Positions 22,399 through 22,767 of a DNA stretch of 64,000 nucleotides are shown in pieces. The DNA comes from Dillenia suffruticosa (lineage: Eukaryota; Streptophyta; Magnoliopsida; Dilleniales; Dilleniaceae), in NCBI GenBank assembly GCA_033439265.1, contig JAVTVX010000031.1, forward strand, positions 20,504,001-20,568,000. The letters run 5' to 3'. Within the stretch, counting starts at the first letter, position 1, and every line of letters starts with the position of its first letter. The translations under genes and the position numbers were made by a program. The notes below the pieces were generated by a model that was not told the origin of the DNA, did not search any database, and worked only from the letters and a program-made list of their open reading frames with translations.

Positions 22399-22767
22399 CC
22401 TGATGGCCAGATGCCAAGTGACAAAACGGTTGGTGGAGGTGATGATGCTTTCAACACCTTCTTTTAGTGAAACTGGTGCTGGCAAGCACGTCCCTCGTGC
22501 AGTTTTTGTAGATCTTCAGCCTACAGTCGTCGACGAAGTCAGAACTGGAACATACCGCTAACTTTTCCACCCAGAGCAGCTCATCAGTGGCAAAAAAGAT
22601 GCTGCCAACAACTTTGCCCGTGGCCACAACACCAGTAATGACAAGTTCACTCTACCATTTCTTTTTCTTTTCTTTTTTACAAATTTCAAATTTGGTATTA
22701 ATTATGATGCTCTGCTACAGTTGGAAAGGAAATTGTTGACCTCTGCTTGGACGCATTGGTTCAGATT
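22399..22767 (+). pseudogene. TUA: Alpha-tubulin gene fragment captured by the CACTA element
   Basis: The first exon piece (22399-22634) reads [20 protein letters not shown], then [27 protein letters not shown] and [20 protein letters not shown], close to residues 32-109 of plant alpha-tubulin. An 86-bp GT-AG intron (22635-22720) follows, then [12 protein letters not shown]. The upstream junction (TCTACAG before CCT) sits at the known intron position after Gln-31. The retained introns mean genomic DNA was captured, not a retro-copy. It cannot encode tubulin: the frame shifts in the NTFFSE segment (TTCTTTTAGTGAA), a TAA replaces the Gln codon after TGTYR, and a base is missing after LCLD. Most of the GTPase and the whole C-terminal domain are absent. 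Conserved changes include LEP to LQP. Confidence 0.9.

Follow-up and report, generated by a model that had tools for sequence, protein, structure and literature searches.

Evidence for DNA-level capture of an alpha-tubulin gene fragment by a multi-fragment CACTA element in Dillenia suffruticosa

How does a broken piece of an alpha-tubulin (TUA) gene, with introns still in place, come to lie between the ends of a CACTA transposon? The question is raised by a 64,000-nucleotide stretch of the Dillenia suffruticosa genome (assembly GCA_033439265.1, contig JAVTVX010000031.1; hereafter the window, C31:20,504,001-20,568,000), which we analyzed together with the 596-Mb genome that contains it (37 contigs; C-numbers). 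We are highly confident that the host is an old, non-autonomous, multi-fragment CACTA element of the Pack-CACTA type, whose ancestor acquired ~1 kb of a TUA gene of the C12 lineage at the DNA level. As described below, a donor gene, related copies elsewhere in the genome, and the structure of the element itself support this reading.

A first-pass annotation had placed alpha-tubulin residues ~32-125 and an 86-bp intron at 22399-22767. Tubulin and intron were both present, but the homology corresponded to residues 32-122 and ended at 22757, and the bases beyond were not tubulin; the annotated interval, although real, covered only about a third of the captured tract (21697-22757). In tblastn searches of the window using an alpha-tubulin protein sequence, residues 30-53 matched 22393-22464, residues 53-109 matched 22463-22633, and residues 109-122 matched 22717-22758 (E 1.5e-39; top piece 110 bits). 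The second-ranked match (22.7 bits) scored lower than the top result from 50 shuffled control proteins (25.8 bits). The fragment passed the Pfam Tubulin cut-off, and alpha-tubulins from the PDB aligned to residues 32-53 and 54-109. As also annotated, the coding region is interrupted by a frameshift, which we traced to one surplus T within the T run at 22462-22465, and by a stop, TAA at codon 85. The captured tract consists of the following parts.

21697-22398, + strand: TUA intron-1 tract, captured; Kimura two-parameter distance (K2P) to the C12 gene 0.123 over 645 sites.
22399-22634, + strand: TUA exon 2 (residues 32-109), captured; contains the frameshift and the stop.
22635-22720, + strand: TUA intron 2, captured, 86 bp, GT..AG; from direct reading of the letters and alignment to the gene.
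22721-22757, + strand: start of TUA exon 3 (residues 110-122), captured; ends at the right breakpoint, which is at the same place in other copies.

Capture at the DNA level is supported because the donor shares both introns, because three more CACTA-associated copies share the right breakpoint, and because there is no tubulin elsewhere in the window. First, the genome search for tubulin yielded 15 match rows, which fall at 13 loci. Residues 1 to 449/450 were matched in exons at nine of them, and only a fragment at the other four (the window, C11:6.95 Mb, C11:11.49 Mb, and C15:23.25 Mb). Among the full-length genes, the check for lesions covered the TUA gene at C12:6.166 Mb, which spans residues 1 to 450 in four exons and is lesion-free, with stops only in its third intron; plant TUA genes are reported to form two classes, with four versus five exons (PMC4709717, PMC11177405). 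Alignment to TUA genes, suggested in the first-pass annotation as a way to the donor and the breakpoints, identified this C12 gene, which was 90.8% identical to 21697-22757 over 996 aligned bases (score 738.6), whereas 30 random 1.1-kb pieces of the window scored ≤16.6 against the same C12 stretch. The match takes in ~700 bp of intron 1, runs through exon 2 and intron 2, and breaks off early in exon 3. It keeps both introns in register and thus upholds the argument from intron retention to DNA-level capture. The acceptor preceding 22399 aligned with the intron-1 acceptor of the C12 gene, in which residue 32 is the first of exon 2; as had been proposed, the acceptor (at 22398) is thus the native one. 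Intron-1 K2P values were 0.123 for window-C12, 0.188 for window-C27, and 0.157 for C12-C27; the window piece is therefore nearest C12, and its capture postdates the C12/C27 split. Exon 2 was ~95% and intron 1 ~89% identical to the nearest gene, and a tree of eight fragment sequences set C12 and the four transposable-element (TE) copies apart from C27 (support 94/92). Judged from these sequence comparisons, the piece derives from the C12:6.166 Mb TUA gene or from a lost near relative in the same lineage. The window copy of intron 1 also has a 53-base run of TTTTA-like repeats (21810-21862) that is in neither of the TUA genes compared (C12 and C27).

Second, as a search for other copies of the element (a check suggested in the first-pass annotation) showed, the TUA piece recurs at three further places, each time within related CACTA sequence and ending at the shared right breakpoint. 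The right join reads GCATT(A)G followed by TTCAGATTTG in the window and in both C11 copies, and was placed in C15 by alignment. The C11:11.49 Mb copy is a compact 4.44-kb element whose termini, CACTA...TAGTG (CACTACAAAAAA and TTTTGTAGTG), enclose TUA. C11:6.95 Mb and C15 have 1.6 kb of other sequence in common (88% identical). Third, tblastn found no tubulin outside the CACTA element in the 64-kb window, and the homology does not extend into the flanks.

The CACTA element itself occupies 12,078-23,386 (11.3 kb, or ~4.6 kb without a nested retrotransposon described below), and its ends were delimited as follows.

12075-12077, no strand: putative left target site CAG; right counterpart TAG at 23387-23389, two of three bases matching; direct reading.
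12078-12089, + strand: left terminal repeat TACTACAAAAAA, one base off CACTACAAAAAA; motif search.
12090-13650, + strand: left CACTA subterminal block and backbone; top k-mer sharing with the right block in the window.
22758-23374, + strand: right CACTA backbone and subterminal block; 61 genome match rows, window included.
23375-23386, − strand: right terminal repeat CACTATAAAAAA, the only exact CACTAYRARAAA match in the window.

The right end begins with an exact CACTA and the left end with TACTA, one base off. At one mismatch the terminal motif matched the window 7 times, with 5.9 matches expected by chance, and so by itself is no evidence; placement of the left end at 12,078 relied on the match between the subterminal blocks. 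The left block shared 51 9-mers with the right block (window mean 6.3, standard deviation 4.8), and the right block shared 42 with the left (mean 2.3, standard deviation 3.8). Each end was the other's top partner within the window, in agreement with the original placement of the fragment between CACTA subterminal blocks. Nor do the ends appear to come from different elements, as the C11:11.49 Mb element bears relatives of both around TUA. Parts of 12090-13650 matched the C11, C15, and C11 5.4-Mb elements at ~65-82%. Mutator-type elements (Pack-MULEs) have long terminal repeats and a 9-bp duplication; the ends here are of the CACTA type. We found no Pfam transposase domain in six-frame translations of 12078-14436 and 21160-23386. 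The element thus shows the traits of a Pack-CACTA: no transposase domain, captured host coding DNA with an identified donor, and more than one copy.

None of the four copies is free of lesions. The window copy has the frameshift and the stop, C11:6.95 Mb a stop along with a one-base deletion and loss of the exon 2 start, C11:11.49 Mb a stop, and C15 a stop plus large deletions. For exon 2, the ratio of nonsynonymous to synonymous substitution rates (dN/dS) was 0.01-0.08 between genes (six pairs), 0.27-0.52 between a TE copy and the donor (four pairs), and 0.45-0.68 between TE copies (the three pairs without C15, of six possible), with small counts of 3 to 20 nonsynonymous changes in pairs that include a TE copy. 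This decay, together with the lesions found in every copy, speaks against a working peptide; the TUA piece is decaying, and we infer that it has no present function.

Several observations count against the reading of a single DNA-level capture by a mobile CACTA family. CACTA elements duplicate 3 bp of target, and the duplication here is imperfect (CAG/TAG, 2/3; by hand calculation, the chance of ≥2/3 is ~0.16), as is that of the C11:11.49 Mb element (AAG/AAC). Read as 5 bp, the length given for a rice and maize set (PMC8903248), it matches at 3/5 (TACAG/TAGAA). The intron-1 tract is missing from both C11 copies and from C15, and all three differ from the window in their left join, which implies either one capture followed by change on the left side or several rounds. 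The C15 copy is rearranged, and neither its ends nor the left end of the C11:6.95 Mb copy was found. In the eight-sequence tree, the TE copies form a single clade with weak support (61/74). The codon-85 stop (within window 22466-22634) is present only in the window and at C11:6.95 Mb and fits no simple order of copies; since C15, with a left structure like that of C11:6.95 Mb, is without it, a parallel C-to-T change or recombination is implied. Copy-copy dN/dS, from small counts, remains below 1, which leaves room for some shared constraint or chance. Finally, Transposase_21 domains are abundant in the genome (150 scored of 2257 candidates, all above the cut-off), and by eye none of the 150 lay within 20 kb of the listed family places, the closest being ~29 kb away on C10; no autonomous partner is therefore named.

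The differing left joins and the weak monophyly of the TE copies would also be expected if the TUA piece had been captured twice from the same gene, once in the window lineage and once in the C11/C15 lineage. The copies, however, share the position of the right join and have related sequence beyond it, and we consider double capture unlikely.

A different reading holds that the element acts on its host today, with the TUA piece transcribed as chimeric exons or feeding small RNAs that silence TUA genes. The splice sites of the piece are retained, and insertion of the soybean CACTA element Tgm-Express1 in an intron is reported to give chimeric spliced transcripts (PMC1947982). Fragments captured by maize Helitrons, Pack-MULEs, and Sireviruses have been called reservoirs of small interfering RNAs, in an account that does not name CACTA elements at that point (PMC13317346). 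Nevertheless, the reading frame has decayed in 4/4 copies, and the exon 2 and intron 1 identities given above (~95% and ~89%) would confine perfect 21-24-nt matches to some stretches, making such activity quite unlikely on sequence grounds.

It is highly unlikely that CACTA ends merely flank a TUA pseudogene that had already arisen by local or segmental duplication, without capture. The imperfect target duplication is compatible with that history, and a Camelina tubulin pseudogene of partial exons has been reported (PMC11177405). Three other CACTA-related stretches of the genome nonetheless hold the same piece with the same right join, tubulin in the window is confined to the element, and the occurrence of both ends and TUA within 4.44 kb at C11:11.49 Mb largely refutes the idea. 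Retroposition of a tubulin cDNA, which a partial coding piece in a transposon-rich stretch might suggest, is refuted by the presence of intron 2 and ~700 bp of intron 1 in alignment with the gene's introns, and is exceedingly improbable.

The capture of TUA by a CACTA element is only part of the history recorded here, and the first-pass account, although right about that capture, overlooked pieces of other loci and a nested copia-type retrotransposon. Upstream of TUA the element is a mosaic of pieces from at least three other loci, which we call X, Y, and Z.

13651-13876, + strand: first half of piece Y, from ~1.8 kb upstream of tetrahydrofolate (THF) dehydrogenase/cyclohydrolase domains on C30; 85% over 226 aligned bases.
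13877-14416, + strand: piece X (C26 locus), inside Y; 88% over 50 and 88% over 317 aligned bases, with no donor matched for 13927-14098.
14436-21154, − strand: nested copia-type long terminal repeat (LTR) retrotransposon with gag and RVT_2 domains; LTRs at 14436-14952 and 20638-21154.
21163-21231, + strand: piece X continued (C26); 94% over 69 bases.
21241-21464, + strand: second half of piece Y (C30), ~1.3 kb upstream of the gene's first recognized domain; 90.7% over 215 aligned bases.
21456-21713, + strand: piece Z, also present at five positions within a related CACTA cluster (C11:5.32-5.46 Mb); 86.7% identical to one of these over 256 aligned bases.

At the C30 locus, Pfam domains PF00763/PF02882 lie downstream of the Y source on the same strand. 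Piece Z has weaker relatives on C21 and C8. An X-related locus, L041 (G000:C26:13,282,000-13,291,900), has its own CACTA-like left end (position 576), flanked on either side by an X piece; domains of copia-type retroelements lie farther down the locus. The copia element of the window is flanked by a perfect 5-bp duplication, ATAGG (14431-14435 and 21155-21159). Its 517-bp LTRs are 84.1% identical over 515 aligned sites, with an excess of transitions (65, versus 17 transversions), and their K2P is 0.189, a value that includes a few flanking bases. The copia insertion was most likely a later event.

The joins between these pieces bear on mechanism. X lies inside Y, TUA is joined onto Z, and Y and Z meet at a short overlap, AAACTCAAG. 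In the C11 5.4-Mb relative, backbone and Z are only 20 bp apart, and in the window element Y sits exactly between them. We propose that an ancestral element gained the TUA tract, from within intron 1 to early exon 3, after the C12/C27 split, with pieces of at least three other loci already present or gained as well, and that TUA-bearing copies then spread to at least four places, presumably by transposase supplied in trans. In the capture step, filler DNA may have been copied into a break or excision gap under repair, or neighboring elements may have been excised aberrantly, as proposed for Arabidopsis Pack-CACTA (PMC13317346); the positions of X within Y and of Y between backbone and Z would fit patching better. 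Because Y lies exactly between backbone and Z, X lies in Y, and TUA is joined onto Z, we tentatively suggest that the family may grow by repeated filling-in near one internal site.

The family itself is sizable. The right block (22758-23386) gave at least 61 genome match rows, window included, with 40 of 76 candidates scored, and dozens of places related to it exist in the genome. At G000:C10:36,029,096-36,079,411, four right-end matches ~16.6-16.8 kb apart may represent a tandem array of a unit with the CACTA family.

Capture of gene fragments at the DNA level is likewise seen in Pack-MULEs, from which the window element differs in having CACTA-type rather than Mutator-type ends. Tgm-Express1, from the wp allele of Glycine max, is a CACTA element of 5.7 kb that carries intron and exon sequence from five genes (PMC1947982). 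The Dillenia element (~4.6 kb without copia) likewise combines intronic and exonic pieces of several host loci, but its donors are different, as the five pieces listed for Tgm-Express1 include neither tubulin nor folate dehydrogenase; furthermore, it was not seen to interrupt a gene, is decayed, and holds the nested copia. Like the Pack-CACTAs of Arabidopsis and maize, it is a non-autonomous CACTA with captured coding DNA, and maize Pack-CACTAs are reported often to hold several loci (PMC8903248). It departs from them in genome and donors, in the placement of X inside Y, and in a terminal duplication that is not intact. We found no report of this tubulin capture in the literature searched on CACTA/Pack-MULE and tubulin capture.

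Other features of the window lie beyond the right end of the element.

24777-25307, − strand: EF-hand calcium-binding gene (Pfam EF-hand pairs), 1.4 kb past the CACTA right end.
38226-38831, − strand: B-box zinc finger gene or fragment.
44544-45062, − strand: MULE transposase domain fragment (PF10551).

The way in which CACTA elements pick up gene fragments remains a matter of debate, and one element here provides several sources, a near-source intact gene, breakpoints, and a join overlap. As related elements lack pieces or hold single ones, the order of captures is testable. If repeated filling-in is correct, then the family would be a readable record of successive captures, whose nested patches could be ordered copy by copy, and repair-copying would be favored over single aberrant excisions. 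For annotation, tubulin-like exons with good splice sites can be transposon cargo in such a genome. Gene-fragment shuffling of this kind is already known, and this tubulin capture is a new, well-preserved example.
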